Shown here piece after piece: positions 583 to 7,926 of a stretch of 7,943 bases of DNA. Numbering within the stretch: the stretch's first letter is position 1; each line of letters begins with the position of its first letter. Source of the DNA: Pseudomonadota bacterium (GTDB lineage Bacteria; Pseudomonadota; Gammaproteobacteria; Xanthomonadales; Rhodanobacteraceae); contig JAJZGE010000061.1 of the NCBI GenBank assembly GCA_021798675.1, positions 1-7,943 on the forward strand, given 5' to 3'. The position numbers and the translations under genes were made by a program. The notes below the pieces were generated by a model. That model did not search any database. It worked only from the letters and a program-made list of their open reading frames with translations, and was not told the DNA's origin.

Positions 583-901
583 GCCGCTCCGGTGGGAGCC
601 GGTCGGTGCCGTGGCGCGGGTGTCGGCCTGCATGCGATGGACGATGGGACTGCTCCGGATGGGCGGCGACGCGGGGGAAGCTCTCTCCCCCGCCCGCACG
701 GCAAGGCGGAAAGCGCGGCGCGGCTTTCAGACCGCGATACCTTGCGGCGGTTCCCGCCGGCCTTGACGCAAGCCTAACCCCGCATCGACGTAACATCGCC
801 GAACTCACCCGCCATGACCGCCCCCGCGTCCGCGCCCGGACGACCATGACGGCCCGCCATCGTCAGCCGCCACGTGCGGTTCCGTGCGGCGCCGCTCATG
901 C
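583..901. other. Divergent intergenic region with GC-rich inverted repeats
   Basis: This stretch separates the minus-strand membrane protein gene from the plus-strand EF-G-like gene. I see no convincing gene in it. It holds several short hairpins: 671-693 (8-bp arms GCGGGGGA/TCCCCCGC), 709-728 (GAAAGC/GCTTTC), 745-759 (CGGCGG/CCGCCG) and 827-842 (CGTCCG/CGGACG). A near-perfect 12-base direct repeat, CCATGACCGCCC at 812-823 and CCATGACGGCCC at 844-855, flanks the last hairpin. Promoters for both flanking genes must lie here or just outside, but I found no hexamer pair with acceptable spacing. Confidence 0.5.
671..693. repeat. Perfect 8-bp inverted repeat, 7-base loop
   Basis: The arms GCGGGGGA (671-678) and TCCCCCGC (686-693) are exact reverse complements around the loop AGCTCTC. 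No T-tract follows on either strand, so it does not look like an intrinsic terminator. A second, weaker hairpin (709-728) follows closely. It could be a structured leader element, a REP-like unit, or simply chance in GC-rich DNA. Confidence 0.35.
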
Positions 902-940
902 CGATGCGACCCGCACCTCTGCAAGAGGAGGGTCGCATCG
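902..940 (+). promoter_or_regulatory. Hairpin masking the ribosome binding site and start codon of the EF-G-like gene
   Basis: The outer arms CGATGCGACCC (902-912) and GGGTCGCATCG (930-940) are perfect 11-bp reverse complements. Inside them, CCTCT (916-920) pairs with AGAGG (924-928) around the triloop GCA. Only 913-915 and A929 are unpaired between the two stems. The Shine-Dalgarno run AAGAGGAGGG (923-932) is almost wholly paired, and the 3' arm ends on the G of the GTG start at 940. In the mRNA this should block ribosome access until it is melted or bound. No T-tract follows, so it is not a terminator. A DNA-level operator is an alternative reading. The structure is seen directly; the regulatory role is inferred. 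Confidence 0.65.
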
Positions 941-2979
941 TGTCCTACACCACGGAAAGCATCCGCAACATCGCGCTCGCCGGCCACGCCGGCAGCGGCA
1001 AGACCACGCTGTTCGAGGCCTTGCTGCACGCCGGCGGCGTGATCCAGGCGCAGGGCTCGGTGGAGCGCGGCACCACGCAGTCGGACACCGACGCGCAGGA
1101 GAAGGCGCGCGGCCATTCCATCGACAGCTGCATCGCCGGCATCGACCGCGGCGATTGCCATATCAACCTGATCGACACCGCCGGCTACGACGACTTCCGC
1201 GGCGGCACGCTGTCCGCCTTCGCCGCGGTGGAAACCGTGATGGTGGTAGTGAACGCGGTCAACGGCATCGAGCACGGCACGCGCCGCATGATGGAACACG
1301 CCCGTTCGCGCGGCCTCGCCCGCGTGCTGGTGGTGAACAAGATCGACTACGAAGGCGCCCATCTTGGTGCGCTGGTGGAGGCACTGCGCGAGGAGTTCGG
1401 CCCCGAATGCCTGCCGGTGAACCTGCCCGCGCAAGGCGGCAAGCGGGTACTGGACTGCTTCTTCCATGCCGAGGGCAGCACCGACTTCTCCTCGCTGGCC
1501 AGCGCGCACCAGCGCATCCTCGACCAGGTGGTGGAGATCAACGAGGCCACCATGGGCGCCTACCTCGACAACGGCGAGGCCGCGCTGAGCCGCCAGCAAC
1601 TGCACGACGCGTTCGAGCAATGCCTGCGCGAGGGGCACCTGGTGCCGATCTGCTTCGTCAGCGCGCGCAATGGCGTGGGCGTGCCGGAGCTGCTGGACAT
1701 CGCCGACCGCCTGCTGCCCAACCCCGCCGAAGGCAACCCGCCGCCCTTCGTCAACGGCGAGGGCGAGGCGATCACCGTCAACGCCGACCCGAAGCAGCAC
1801 GTGATCGCCGACGTGTTCAAGATCGTCAACGACCCCTTCGTCGGCAAGCTCGGAATCTTCCGCGTGTGGCAGGGCACGGTGCGCCGCGACGCGCAGCTCT
1901 ACGTGGACGACGGCCGCAAACCGTTCCGCGTGGGCCACCTGTTCCGGCTCAACGCGAAGGAGCACGTGGAGATCGAACAGGCCGTGGCTGGCGACATCGC
2001 CGCGGTGGCCAAGGTAGAGGAGATCCATTACGACGCCGTGCTGCACGACGCGCACGAGGAAGACCACATCCACCTCGCGCCGATGCGCTTTCCGCATCCG
2101 ATGTCGGGCCTGGCGCTGGAGCCGAAGCACAAGGGCCAGGAGCAGAAGCTGGCGAACGCGCTGGCGCGGCTGGCCGAGGAAGACCCCTGCCTGCGCATGG
2201 AACATCACAAGGAGCTCAACGAGACCGTGCTGCGCGGCCTCTCCGAGCTGCACCTCAAGGTGACGCTCGAGCGCATGCGCGAACGCTACGGTGTGGAAGT
2301 GGAAACCCATCCGCCGCGCATCGCCTATCGCGAGACCATCGCCGCGCCAGCGGAAGGCCATCATCGGCACAAGAAGCAGACCGGCGGCGCCGGCCAGTTC
2401 GGCGAAGTGTTCCTGCGCGTGGAGCCGCTGGAGCGGGGCGCCGGCTTCGAATTCGTGGACGCGGTGAAGGGCGGCGTGATCCCCGGCAGCTTCCTGCCCG
2501 CCATCGAGAAGGGCGTGCGCCAGGCGATGGAACGCGGCGCGGTGGCCGGCTACCCGCTGCAGGACCTGCGCGTCACCGTGTACGACGGCAAATACCACCC
2601 AGTCGATTCCAAGGAAGTCGCCTTTGTCAGTGCCGGCAAGAAGGCCTTCCTGGACGCCGTGGGCAAGGCACGCCCCATCCTGCTGGAGCCGATCGTGGAC
2701 GTGGAGGTGGCCATCCCCGAGAGCGACGTGGGCGATGTCACCGGCGGCCTCGCCGGCAAGCGCGCGCGCATCCTCGGTACCGACAGCCGGCGCGGTGGCG
2801 AGCTGCTGATCAAGGCGCAGGCACCACTGGCCGAGCTCACCGACTACCCCACCGAGCTCAAGGCCATGACCGGTGGCCGCGGCCGCTACAGCCTCGACCT
2901 CAGCCACTACGAACCGGTACCACCGCCGCTGCAGAAACAGCTCAGCGAAGGGTGGAAGCCGAAGCTGGAGGAAGACTGA
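940..2979 (+). CDS. fusA2: Elongation factor G-like translational GTPase (EF-G paralogue)
   Basis: This 679-residue protein has the five-domain plan of EF-G. The G domain shows a P-loop GHAGSGKT (residues 15-22), a switch I region with RGHSI (57-61), G3 DTAGYDDF (79-86), G4 NKID (133-136) and G5 SARNG (241-245). Domain II follows, then domain III with LARLAEEDP (from 408). Domain IV has KKQTGGAGQF (from about 478) and a tip loop YHPVDS (552-557), in which His553 matches the tip histidine of canonical EF-G. Domain V closes with a C-terminal tail. It is oddly divergent: canonical DTPGHVDF has become DTAGYDDF, so the catalytic His is Tyr83, and the switch I Thr is Ser60. It therefore resembles EF-G2-type paralogues rather than the housekeeping translocase. 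I chose the GTG at 940 because AGGAGGG lies seven bases upstream; GTG 874 and ATG 898/904 lack one. It stands alone and converges with the cyclase gene. EF-G family membership is certain; its cellular role is not. Confidence 0.93.
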   Translation: MSYTTESIRNIALAGHAGSGKTTLFEALLHAGGVIQAQGSVERGTTQSDTDAQEKARGHSIDSCIAGIDRGDCHINLIDTAGYDDFRGGTLSAFAAVETVMVVVNAVNGIEHGTRRMMEHARSRGLARVLVVNKIDYEGAHLGALVEALREEFGPECLPVNLPAQGGKRVLDCFFHAEGSTDFSSLASAHQRILDQVVEINEATMGAYLDNGEAALSRQQLHDAFEQCLREGHLVPICFVSARNGVGVPELLDIADRLLPNPAEGNPPPFVNGEGEAITVNADPKQHVIADVFKIVNDPFVGKLGIFRVWQGTVRRDAQLYVDDGRKPFRVGHLFRLNAKEHVEIEQAVAGDIAAVAKVEEIHYDAVLHDAHEEDHIHLAPMRFPHPMSGLALEPKHKGQEQKLANALARLAEEDPCLRMEHHKELNETVLRGLSELHLKVTLERMRERYGVEVETHPPRIAYRETIAAPAEGHHRHKKQTGGAGQFGEVFLRVEPLERGAGFEFVDAVKGGVIPGSFLPAIEKGVRQAMERGAVAGYPLQDLRVTVYDGKYHPVDSKEVAFVSAGKKAFLDAVGKARPILLEPIVDVEVAIPESDVGDVTGGLAGKRARILGTDSRRGGELLIKAQAPLAELTDYPTELKAMTGGRGRYSLDLSHYEPVPPPLQKQLSEGWKPKLEED

Positions 2980-4866
2980 TCAGGCCGACTCGACGCGATT
3001 CCGGCCGGTTTGCTTGGCGCGGTACAGCGCGCTGTCGGCGCGCATGACCAACGTGCCCGGGGCGGACTCGTTCGCGCGCAACGACGCGACACCCAAGCTG
3101 ACGGTAATCCTGATCTGTGCATCGCCGACCGCGAACACGGCGGCCGCGACCTTGGCGCGCAAGCGCTCGGCCACCATTACGCCGTGTTCGAGATCGGTGC
3201 CCGGCAGCACCACCAGGAACTCCTCGCCGCCGACCCGACCGAAGCGGTCGTGCTGGCGCATGGAGTCCTGGCACAGGCGGGCGGTTTCGCGCAGCACCTG
3301 GTCGCCGACCGGGTGGCCGTGGGCGTCGTTGACATGCTTGAAATGGTCGATGTCCAGCATTGCCACCGTCAGTTCCTCGTGCGACTGGCTTGCCCTCGCG
3401 ATGGCCGTCTCGAGCAGGTGGTCGATGTGGCGCCGGTTGGAGATGCCGGTCAACGGATCGAGCAGCGACAACCGGTTCAGGTGGCGGCTCTTCAGCAGTT
3501 GCCGATAGGCCAGCCAGGCCACGCCAAGCATCAGCAGGCCGCCCAGCAGGATCGCCAGCCACTGCCATTTACGCACGCTTTCCAGCGAGGCCAGTTGCTG
3601 GCTCTGCAACGCCTTTTCGTCGGCGAGGCGACGGTTTTCCAGGTCGCGGCGCGCGGTGTCGAAGCGGTAGCGCATCAAGGTGGTGACCTGCGCCTTGGTT
3701 TTCTGCTCCAGCTCCTTGTTGGTGGCGATCATGCGCTTGAGGTCGTCAAGCGCCGCCTGGGTCTGGCCCAGCGCCTCCTCGTTCTTCGAGCGCGCGGCAT
3801 AGAGTTCGGCGAGGTAACGCAGGTTGCCGCTGCTGGCCAGGGCTTTTGCCGCGGCCTGGAACTCCTGTGCCGCGAGGCTGCGCTGGCCCAGCCCGGCGTG
3901 CGCCTCCGCCGACTGCAGCGCCAGCATGTCGGCGTTGGAGTGGTCCGAAACGGACCGGAAGATCCTGGAGGCCTCCGCGAGCTGCTGCAGTGCGGTGTCG
4001 TACTGGCCGAGCTGGTTGCTGATTTCCGCCTGCGCCAGCAGGGCCGAGCCAACGCTTTGCGGCGGCCCGATCTCGCGCGCAAGCTCCAGCGCCTTCTGCA
4101 GCGGTGCCACCGCGGCGGCCGGTTCGCCCCGCTCGCCGGCAAGGAAGCCCCGCTCCATGTCGATGGCAAGCAATTGCTGCTTGTCCTTGGCATGGCCGAT
4201 CGTCGCCAACGCCTGGCGCAGGTAATTGGCCGCATCGTCGTATTCGCCCATGCGCCGGTACAGGCTGGCGATGTTGACGAGGTTGGCGCGCGCGGGCGCC
4301 GCGGCATTGGCGATCTTCTCGTAGGCGGTCTGCGCGTCCAGCAGGTCGATCATCGCCTTGGCCTGGTCGCCCAGCAAGGAGAGCTCGCTGCCACGCCAGG
4401 TCAACGCGTCCGCGATCACATGAGGGTCGCCCAGTCGCTTCGCGGTCCGCACCGCGGCGTCGAAGCTCGCCAGTGCCTCGCGATCGCCGCTGGCCTGGAT
4501 GAGGTAATTACCGAGGCACATCTGGAAATTCGACTCGGCGTTCAGGTCGCCGGCCTGCCGCGCCGTCTCGACGCCTCGCCTCGCGTAGGCTACGCCGCCG
4601 CTGGCGTCGCTCTGGAAGGCGAGAAAGCAGTAGATGTAGCCATAGCTGCGTTCACGGGCCGCGTCATGCGGCGGCAGCAGGGCATGCAACTGTGCCAGTG
4701 TCCTCTTCACCGCCGCATCGCTGTCGGGGGCGACGGTGCCGTCGTTCAATTGTTGCAGCAAGTGGTCGAACGCAGCCGGATCGGGTGCCGCCGCCCTCTG
4801 CGCACGCAGGGTCGGGAGCACGGCCAACGCCATGCATGCCAGCAACGCCTGCAAGCTGCTACGCAA
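2980..4866 (-). CDS. Membrane diguanylate cyclase with periplasmic TPR sensor domain (GGDEF)
   Basis: This 628-residue protein should make cyclic di-GMP from two GTP. It has a signal-peptide-like N-terminus (residues 1-22, ending LRA). An alpha-helical region of TPR-type repeats follows (about 30-375; for example MGEYDDAANYLRQAL and LGQYDTALQQL), then a probable coiled coil (about 380-430), one transmembrane helix (about 436-456) and a C-terminal GGDEF domain (about 465-628). Active-site residues are all present: Asp505 of DIDHFK, Asn513, Asp522 and the GGEEF signature at 546-550. The inhibitory I-site RxxD is RQHD (537-540), exactly five residues before GGEEF, so product inhibition is expected. 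The sensor should lie in the periplasm and the cyclase in the cytoplasm; the ligand is unknown. The start is TTG at 4866, supported by GGAGGAGG (4870-4877) just upstream. It follows the SET gene on the same strand after a 100-base gap. Confidence 0.93.
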   Translation of the reverse strand: MRSSLQALLACMALAVLPTLRAQRAAAPDPAAFDHLLQQLNDGTVAPDSDAAVKRTLAQLHALLPPHDAARERSYGYIYCFLAFQSDASGGVAYARRGVETARQAGDLNAESNFQMCLGNYLIQASGDREALASFDAAVRTAKRLGDPHVIADALTWRGSELSLLGDQAKAMIDLLDAQTAYEKIANAAAPARANLVNIASLYRRMGEYDDAANYLRQALATIGHAKDKQQLLAIDMERGFLAGERGEPAAAVAPLQKALELAREIGPPQSVGSALLAQAEISNQLGQYDTALQQLAEASRIFRSVSDHSNADMLALQSAEAHAGLGQRSLAAQEFQAAAKALASSGNLRYLAELYAARSKNEEALGQTQAALDDLKRMIATNKELEQKTKAQVTTLMRYRFDTARRDLENRRLADEKALQSQQLASLESVRKWQWLAILLGGLLMLGVAWLAYRQLLKSRHLNRLSLLDPLTGISNRRHIDHLLETAIARASQSHEELTVAMLDIDHFKHVNDAHGHPVGDQVLRETARLCQDSMRQHDRFGRVGGEEFLVVLPGTDLEHGVMVAERLRAKVAAAVFAVGDAQIRITVSLGVASLRANESAPGTLVMRADSALYRAKQTGRNRVESA

Positions 4867-4966: not shown

Positions 4967-5434
4967 TCAGCGCTTCGGCTTGAGCAGCGTGCCCGTGCAG
5001 TTCGGCGCACCGCACAGGCACTTCCACAGCTTCTTCAGCCGCGCCGTGTGCGGCACTTCCAGCGTGATGCCGTAGTCGTAGGTGAGCTCCTCGCCCGGCT
5101 TGATGTTGCGGACGGCCTCGATCAGCACCTTGTCCCTGCGCGGATCGCCGCTGGCGCTTTCCTCGATCACGGCGCGGCAGTTGGGGGCGCAGCTGTGGTT
5201 GATCCAGCGCGCGGTGTTGCCCTTGCGGTTGGCATCGACGATGTAGTCGTCGTTGAGGGTGAACAGGAAGGTGTGGCCGGTTTCGCCGCCGTCGCCGTAC
5301 ATCTCGTCGGCTTCGGCGTGGGTCATCAGCGTGCCCCGGTACTGGATGATTTCCTCGCCCTTCCTGATCGGCTCGACGGCGAACACGCCATTGCCATGGA
5401 TGGGGGAGCGACGGGCGACAATGCGACGGGTCAT
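4967..5434 (-). CDS. Small SET-domain protein lysine methyltransferase
   Basis: This 155-residue protein is a nearly bare SET domain, predicted to transfer methyl from S-adenosylmethionine to a protein lysine. Visible motifs are HGNGVFA (residues 13-19), the cofactor and pseudoknot motif NHSCAPNC (79-86), GEELTYDY (114-121) with the catalytic tyrosine, and a post-SET zinc motif CLCGAPNC (139-146). By analogy with Dim-5-type enzymes, Cys139, Cys141 and Cys146 would bind zinc together with Cys82. No signal peptide or partner domain is seen, so it is probably cytoplasmic. The substrate is unknown; bacterial relatives have been linked to histone-like or ribosomal targets or to host histones. I chose ATG 5434 because homology-like sequence starts there. 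An in-frame ATG at 5506 adds 24 residues, and neither start has a clear Shine-Dalgarno sequence. It is divergent from the lipoprotein operon. Confidence 0.88.
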   Translation of the reverse strand: MTRRIVARRSPIHGNGVFAVEPIRKGEEIIQYRGTLMTHAEADEMYGDGGETGHTFLFTLNDDYIVDANRKGNTARWINHSCAPNCRAVIEESASGDPRRDKVLIEAVRNIKPGEELTYDYGITLEVPHTARLKKLWKCLCGAPNCTGTLLKPKR

Positions 5435-5505
5435 GTGGCGTGCTGGCGACGGTGGCGGAACGTCGCATGATGCCTGCAGTACGCAGCCGTGGAAACTGTC
5501 CGCCA

Positions 5506-5534
5506 TTGACGTGCGCGGCGGCCCGGGTCAAGAT
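5506..5534 (+). promoter_or_regulatory. Candidate sigma-70 promoter for the lipoprotein/acyl-CoA dehydrogenase operon
   Basis: TTGACG (5506-5511; five of six matches to the -35 consensus) is followed after 17 bases by CAAGAT (5529-5534; three of six matches to the -10 consensus). Transcription would start near 5541, inside the PsrA-like operator, which is the geometry expected for a repressor. The -10 is weak, so this is tentative. Confidence 0.3.
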
Positions 5535-7893: not shown

Positions 7894-7926
7894 AAGCGAA
7901 GCCCGGCACCCGCCGGGCTTCGCTTT
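7894..7926 (+). terminator. Rho-independent terminator after the acyl-CoA dehydrogenase gene
   Basis: AAGCGAAGCCCGGC (7894-7907) and GCCGGGCTTCGCTT (7912-7925) form a perfect 14-bp GC-rich stem around the loop ACCC. The T-run at its end is short (CTTTC), as is common in high-GC genomes. It begins 23 bases after the TGA stop and closes the operon. No such signal ends the lipoprotein gene, which supports co-transcription. Confidence 0.85.

Follow-up and report, generated by a model that had tools for sequence, protein, structure and literature searches.

A probable start-occluding translational leader on the EF-G II gene of a Rhodanobacteraceae bacterium and its older counterpart in the Lysobacterales

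Translational leaders in which mRNA structure occludes the ribosome-binding site (RBS) exist in ribosomal-protein and translation-factor operons. The leader described here resembles them in that a cis-located mRNA structure hides the Shine-Dalgarno (SD) sequence and the start of a gene of the translation machinery and can set its level; it differs from them in that it has no known bound regulator, in that it belongs to a separate EF-G II gene rather than to a ribosomal-protein operon, and in that a start-pairing helix is accompanied by a second hairpin downstream. RNA thermometers of the ROSE and fourU types likewise bury the SD sequence and the start codon in a hairpin, but the stem studied here is neither weak nor meltable and is calculated to be stable at 70°C. 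While start-occluding leaders are known as a kind, a family of them on an EF-G II gene is new in that, to our knowledge, none has been described. Proteins of the EF-G II type occur widely as second elongation factors. Control of Bacteroides fusA2/EF-G2, a gene from a phylum other than that of the gene analyzed here, is reportedly transcriptional; the account of its master regulator portrays a second EF-G that is made under special conditions.

The EF-G II gene and the hairpin at its start

The window, i.e., the whole stretch of 7,943 nucleotides that we analyzed, stems from a Rhodanobacteraceae genome (G000) of 3.07 Mb in 294 contigs, assigned to this family through the named relatives nearest to it. 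It contains the following features around the start of the gene:

940-2979, forward strand: gene for an EF-G paralogue of the EFG II type, 679 amino acids, GTG start (NF009891, 932 bits; Pfam domains; alignment to EF-G)
902-912, forward strand: 5' arm of the hairpin, CGATGCGACCC, a perfect reverse complement of 930-940 (11 bp)
930-940, forward strand: 3' arm of the hairpin, GGGTCGCATCG, which takes in the first base of the GTG
916-928, forward strand: inner stem of 5 bp, CCTCT (916-920) with AGAGG (924-928), loop GCA
925-932, forward strand: buried SD sequence, GAGGAGGG (reading of the sequence and calculated fold)

Alignment to EF-G revealed RGHSI in place of RGITI and DTAGYDDF in place of DTPGHVDF in the window protein. 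The protein thus has no RGITI in G2 and carries a motif of the HSI/HSL type, as do members of the EFG II subfamily (PMC3150367); the accessible portion of that study concerns the proteins, and mRNA leaders are absent from it. Among the orthologous loci read, RGHSI is present in 91 and RGHSL in 12. In switch II, a Tyr occupies the position of the catalytic His of EF-G, and the orthologues display DTAGYADF (35 loci), DTAGYDDF (15 loci) or DTPGYADF (8 loci), with 76 loci unmatched by the pattern. The gene is present in 206 of the 233 genomes of the family (cut-off E 1e-250) and in 288 of 398 genomes of the order (cut-off E 1e-200). A gene for a TPR-GGDEF protein (2980-4866, reverse strand) converges on it with abutting stop codons (2979/2980, zero spacer), and a small SET-domain protein (Pfam PF00856) is encoded at 4967-5506 on the reverse strand.

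The hairpin at 902-940 has a calculated free energy of -26.7 kcal/mol (z -6.98); none of 200 dinucleotide shuffles folded equally well, and its stem stays folded within a context of 101-141 nt (z -3.0 to -4.0). The preliminary description of this DNA, made by eye, had reported an 11-bp outer and a 5-bp inner stem that enclose the whole RBS and the first base of the GTG. Both stems are real and the first base of GTG940, and only this base of the codon, is paired, while the burial of the RBS is incomplete in that SD base A929 is unpaired; by calculation, the leaders of the window and of its relatives have the SD sequence, the start codon, or both in paired form.

A hairpin of this length is by itself no rarity in such genomes, and it is the placement over a start that is rare. 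In 400 kb of the sister genome G013, perfect arms of at least 11 bp with loops of 3-20 nt occur about 1.7 times per 8 kb (nested registers counted), and the window itself holds a longer, terminator-like 14-bp perfect inverted repeat (7894-7925) behind an acyl-CoA dehydrogenase gene. The unusual placement singled out in the preliminary description is borne out by a background of 109 SD-bearing starts among 232 ORFs, taken with a crude ORF caller of our own from 400 kb of G013: none of them (0/109) carries an unbroken stem of at least 11 bp over the start region, three fold as strongly as the window, and three are as inaccessible. This set supersedes an earlier one of 73 genes that had been obtained with the same crude caller.

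The calculated free energy of the hairpin rises from its value at 37°C to -21.0 kcal/mol at 50°C and -12.3 kcal/mol at 70°C, and the SD sequence has an unpaired probability of 0.14-0.18 from 15 to 70°C. An RNA thermometer that melts with heat, suggested as a trigger in the preliminary description beside a protein-bound leader, an sRNA target, and a helicase or stalling switch, would occlude the SD sequence and the start just as this hairpin does, but the calculated temperature profile makes such a device very unlikely.

An older leader upstream and its counterparts in the Lysobacteraceae

The by-eye reading found 902-940 but missed an older leader that lies before it, which we located with a covariance model. 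The region upstream of the hairpin contains:

763-796, forward strand: possible promoter, TTGACG (763-768) and TAACAT (791-796), a tentative assignment from upstream alignments with non-canonical spacing
808-903, forward strand: older leader, homologous to the start-occluding Lysobacteraceae leader (covariance model R2; ends on ATG 898-900)
813-819, forward strand: motif M0, CATGACC, conserved in alignments
827-842, forward strand: small stem CGTCCG/CGGACG, a possible SL1 counterpart (fold of 800-980)
845-854, forward strand: motif M1, CATGACGGCC, the anti-start strand of the older hairpin, which pairs with 891-900 in the fold
891-900, forward strand: old start region, GCCGCTCATG, with ATG 898 and no SD sequence before it (sequence, fold, covariance model)

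We compared 234 distinct leaders of the orthologous EF-G II type gene from the Lysobacterales; the named loci number 80, the best among 561 confirmed candidates. Of these leaders, 105 have an SD-GTG element of the type seen in the window; the pattern used to select them includes GGAGGG and GTG. The remaining 129 comprise 86 with a CATGACG-like motif upstream and 43 without the M1 motif. After four of the 86 had been dropped as doubtful, 82 Lysobacteraceae-type leaders remained. In these, a motif that mostly reads CATGAC is located about 40 nt before the start (range 32 to 85 nt); the first five bases of this motif are able to base-pair with UCAUG, which comprises the start codon and two additional bases, and those that follow can do so with the spacer between the SD sequence and the start. 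The variable part of this helix differs on both strands (GGCC/GGCC, GUCC/GGAC, GCCC or GCUC/GGGC, GCCUU/AAGGC and, in some leaders, CG/CG), and the pairing of the start codon is kept even though bulge registers shift between leaders. Folding of 71 of the 82 leaders gave a mean probability of 0.73 for pairing between the start codon and M1 and of 0.08 for an unpaired start codon; the probability of pairing with M1 falls below 0.1 in nine of these 71.

Compensatory changes in this older helix are strong at the level of sequence comparison. The stability of cognate duplexes exceeds that of swapped ones (class means -10.6 vs. -8.9; permutation p 0.0005) and that of tree-simulated sequences (-12.0 vs. 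-7.4; p 0.01). In 39 leader classes, which represent 65 leaders after 17 leaders in five classes with a shifted bulge had been left out, 78.5% of the cells are paired vs. 28-60% for slid partners; their covariation score was matched by none of 500 shuffles, and one pair occurs as GC15/CG7/UA4/GU1. An alignment of 38 leaders picked for diversity gave a similar picture for the two-hairpin structure (87.3% of the cells pair vs. 23-41%; 0/500 shuffles). On the EF-G protein tree with 48 full-length rows, the most variable pair needs three changes for CG and two for UA, of which two and one, respectively, are forced by starred branches; this tree offers few independent pairs for a sign test. Two of the five measures, both-sides-changed pairs and pair types, lie within the shuffles (352 and 351 of 500 for the 39 classes; 173 and 207 of 500 for the 38-row alignment). 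With default RNAalifold, the 38 rows did not yield the start helix but a structure of -2.4 kcal/mol with M0 paired to M1; the M1-start helix appears with ribosum scoring on 71 rows, or when given as a named structure. A fixed-register column test of this helix on 82 rows returned a single pair at p of about 0.05, a weak outcome because one Lysobacter group has its bulge in a shifted position and CATGAC is for the most part invariant.

The covariance model R2 was built from the 38 leaders, with three rows from genus g25 of the window's family and none from Rhodanobacter, Dyella, or the genus of the window (g1); a model built on the default RNAalifold structure (R1) was not used for searching. 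R2 matches the window at 808-903 with 27.8 bits (E 9.8e-4 in 477 kb), which is the only place matched at E <=0.1 in the genome of the window (E 0.006). It also matches all nine other Rhodanobacteraceae loci of the same search, and 36 of 38 further hand-picked Rhodanobacteraceae loci have a leader match at E <0.1. Among 99 relatives, 44 have a match at E <=0.1, and the 48 places listed for these matches divide into 32 that are at most 300 nt upstream of the gene as located by our searches, eight elsewhere, and eight in genomes without a recorded gene position. Since the best background match in 400 kb scored 21.1 bits vs. 20.7 bits at that genome's own gene (L289), single weak matches prove little. 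The match ends on the real start in the single-copy Dyella-like leaders L030, L153, L159, and L166 and also in some leaders that carry the local arm (L104, L085); in others, such as L010 and the window, it ends on the older ATG. Within Luteibacter, L065 and L078 have a match, while L064 and L072 have none. For motif M1 of the window, whose partner strand covaries in the Lysobacteraceae-type leaders, GGUCG-ca-UCGUG at the real start offers a second possible partner (duplex -9.6 kcal/mol).

In the window, ATG 898 shares the reading frame of the gene and coincides with the start codon of the model; translation could on these grounds begin there or at ATG 904, with the hairpin then lying within the coding region. 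We regard this as hardly credible, since ATG 898 is preceded by no SD sequence, its counterpart in the sister locus L003 lies out of frame (44 nt from the GTG), frames are scattered across the relatives, and GTG940 has a strong SD sequence 8 nt before it. The ATG at 898-900 is apparently disused. The distances from M0 to M1 and from M1 to the start spread over all three frame classes in both leader groups. This scatter of motif-to-start frames marks the leader as non-coding, and it likewise rules out an upstream ORF or leader-peptide attenuator as the explanation of the repeated ATGAC motifs.

Among 27 chosen leaders, the stretch CTTGACC-N17-GANGCT lies just 5' of the first motif in Lysobacter and in genus g47, which is taken to be Pseudoxanthomonas, and a similar one does so in Dyella. 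Neither a match to the sigma-70 consensus nor an intrinsic terminator (a stem followed by a T run) was found within 640-960 of the window. As a promoter-like stretch precedes the first motif in the aligned leaders, the leader hairpins are probably transcribed. The leader has no Rfam match at gathering thresholds, and a search of 700-1060 at E up to 5 returned two unrelated sub-threshold matches only. The literature searched, which covered few subscription journals, also contained no EF-G II leader of this kind, in agreement with the preliminary description, whose author knew of none for EF-G paralogues. An identity of 21 nt elsewhere in the window's genome was taken as chance.

The inverted repeats could alternatively be operator sites for a transcription factor, RNA structure not being involved. 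M0 and M1 are indeed short repeated motifs (CCATGACSGCC), and 10 of 12 exact matches to the 17-mer GGACNRCCATGACGGCC in 121 genomes lie at this gene (one elsewhere, one unplaced). Because a reversed control pattern was about as frequent (11 matches vs. 12), only the placement of these matches is informative, and the 17-mer was abandoned as a marker. A DNA element is a distinctly improbable explanation given that the pairs change on both strands and that the start-codon pairing is retained although M1 lies anywhere from 32 to 85 nt before the start and the bulge registers shift.

The local hairpin in the Rhodanobacteraceae

Nine of the 105 GTG-type leaders, in which the local arm is absent or replaced (L030, L064, L065, L072, L078, L089, L153, L159, L166), were set aside, leaving 96 leaders with a local arm and 86 distinct rows. 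The four Luteibacter loci among the nine (L064, L065, L072, L078) retain GGAGGG(T/A)CGCATCGTG and have different upstream arms. In the local-arm leaders, the arm reads CACGA and is complementary to UCGUG, which consists of the start codon and two further bases. Its counterpart in the genus of the window is UGCGA, whose partner, in a shifted register, is UCGCA; the 11-bp stem results from this shift. The preliminary description had made its reading depend on orthologues retaining the pairing, and nearly all of these rows do: the five pairs over UCGUG are each possible in 80-84 of 85-86 rows, where wobble pairs accommodate changes from C to U and from A to G.

That description had also looked to compensatory changes in the stem, and these are clear in the older helix and modest in the local hairpin. 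The 3' arm reads GGGTCGCATC in 74 of the 86 distinct rows and GGGACGTCTC in seven, with GGAGGG being part of the row selection, and as this arm is almost invariant, the outer stem is unable to show covariation. Swapping the 3' arms between the TCGCATC and ACGTCTC groups incurred zero energy cost, which rules against a simple co-evolution of the local outer stem. In the inner stem, pair 23-36 occurs as CG (23), UG (15), AU (14), and UA (8) and is unpaired in 21 of the 81 rows shown (p 0.007), and pair 22-37 reached p 0.07; both values are uncorrected, and most of the 24 column pairs tested were not significant. The mean minimum free energy (MFE) of the local hairpin is lower than under a tree null, though only at p 0.03-0.04.

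When 98 leaders were folded with more context, their start bases paired with the local arm at a mean of 0.47, with M1 at 0.07, and elsewhere at 0.41; the corresponding values for the window are 0.25, 0.01, and 0.54. Relative to the 109 background starts, 1% of the 105 leaders fall below the 5% quantile in energy; in accessibility, 20% fall below the 5% quantile and 85% below the 25% quantile. By calculation, the relatives are moderately, hardly extremely, more occluded than background starts. This moderate excess, the frequency of perfect inverted repeats of such length in the genome, and hairpin-only tree nulls of p 0.007-0.07 at best would suit chance pairing between a GC-rich leader and a conserved SD sequence, the 11 bp of the window being drift. 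Such a coincidence is nevertheless improbable in view of the placement on the start, unmatched in the background set, and of a homologous leader with compensatory changes. Selection on the local hairpin alone appears modest, and the case for it rests mainly on position, retention, and homology. Since the 5' arm of Rhodanobacter, GCCACGAGGCC, resembles the old GCCATGACGGCC, it is plausible that the local arm arose by duplication of the old arm.

A proposed start-occluding brake

Related soil bacteria keep such a fold across many species while its letters change, and for this reason we consider hairpin 902-940 probably to be a built-in, start-occluding translational brake, one lineage's version of an older brake of the Lysobacterales. 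The deliberate translational control suggested in the preliminary description is thereby favored through the start-occluding fold common to the orthologues and the compensatory changes in the Lysobacteraceae-type leaders, less so through the local hairpin. The EF-G II transcript would carry at its 5' end, from a start that we infer, about 140 nt of structured, non-coding leader, whose last element, hairpin 902-940, is predicted to pair away the SD sequence and the first start-codon base; 30S subunits are therefore proposed to be excluded until the hairpin opens. In the older brake, an upstream anti-start motif (CAUGAC-NNNN) would pair with the spacer and the AUG. The Rhodanobacteraceae seem to have kept this older leader while translation moved, in an order of events that we have reconstructed, to a new SD sequence and GTG downstream, which a second hairpin, of 11+5 bp in the window's genus, would hide in turn. 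The brake would be closed by default and would presumably lower translation in the cell; as the opening agent, we consider temperature less likely than either a trans-acting factor or a refolding that involves the older leader. The compact leader looks like an instance in which a regulatory hairpin has been rebuilt at a start codon that shifted, and its conservation suggests that the cells hold EF-G II synthesis down and implies a releasing signal, which, once found, would show when EF-G II is used.

The main rival of a brake that can be opened is a fixed low setting without a switch: the hairpin would set a low, constant EF-G II synthesis that nothing opens, and the 11-bp version would reflect a relaxed need for the protein. 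We consider this possible though doubtful. The calculated stability is very high and no switch temperature is predicted; hairpin strength varies widely among the relatives, from about -14 to -29 kcal/mol (median MFE -19.3 in the 105 leaders); and the gene looks dispensable, because 27 of the 233 family genomes are without it at the search cut-off. A low setting, however, needs neither the conserved M0 and M1 nor a second hairpin, as a weak SD sequence would be enough. As a more speculative and rather unlikely elaboration of the brake, the double leader might serve as a sensor of the translation machinery, in which old and new anti-start strands compete, a leader-bound factor shifts the balance, and EF-G II synthesis is confined to times when normal translocation or the supply of ribosomes is impaired. 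The factor may be EF-G II itself, a ribosomal protein, or the initiating 30S complex; if true, this would be the first autoregulatory leader known to us for an EF-G paralogue.

An insertion is found directly behind the hairpin's GTG in four relatives (L087:1225-1503, L020:2725-3003, L134, and L171), with 245-248 nt from the GTG to a new ATG. Rfam searches with it gave sub-threshold matches only. The insertion is bounded by inverted ends of 38 nt, of which 33-36 are paired, so that the new ATG comes to lie within a stem; when two copies are compared, as many as six end pairs have changed on both sides. Together with its flanks, about 305 nt in all, the insertion has calculated folding energies of -179 to -217 kcal/mol (z -19.9 for the L087 copy). 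In L087 and L020, the old GTG begins an ORF of about 83 codons that stops at the EF-G gene's new ATG. Sequences resembling the core of the insertion occur in 106 of 230 family genomes, and the copies in L314 and L315 have closing arms that are of other sequence yet complementary.
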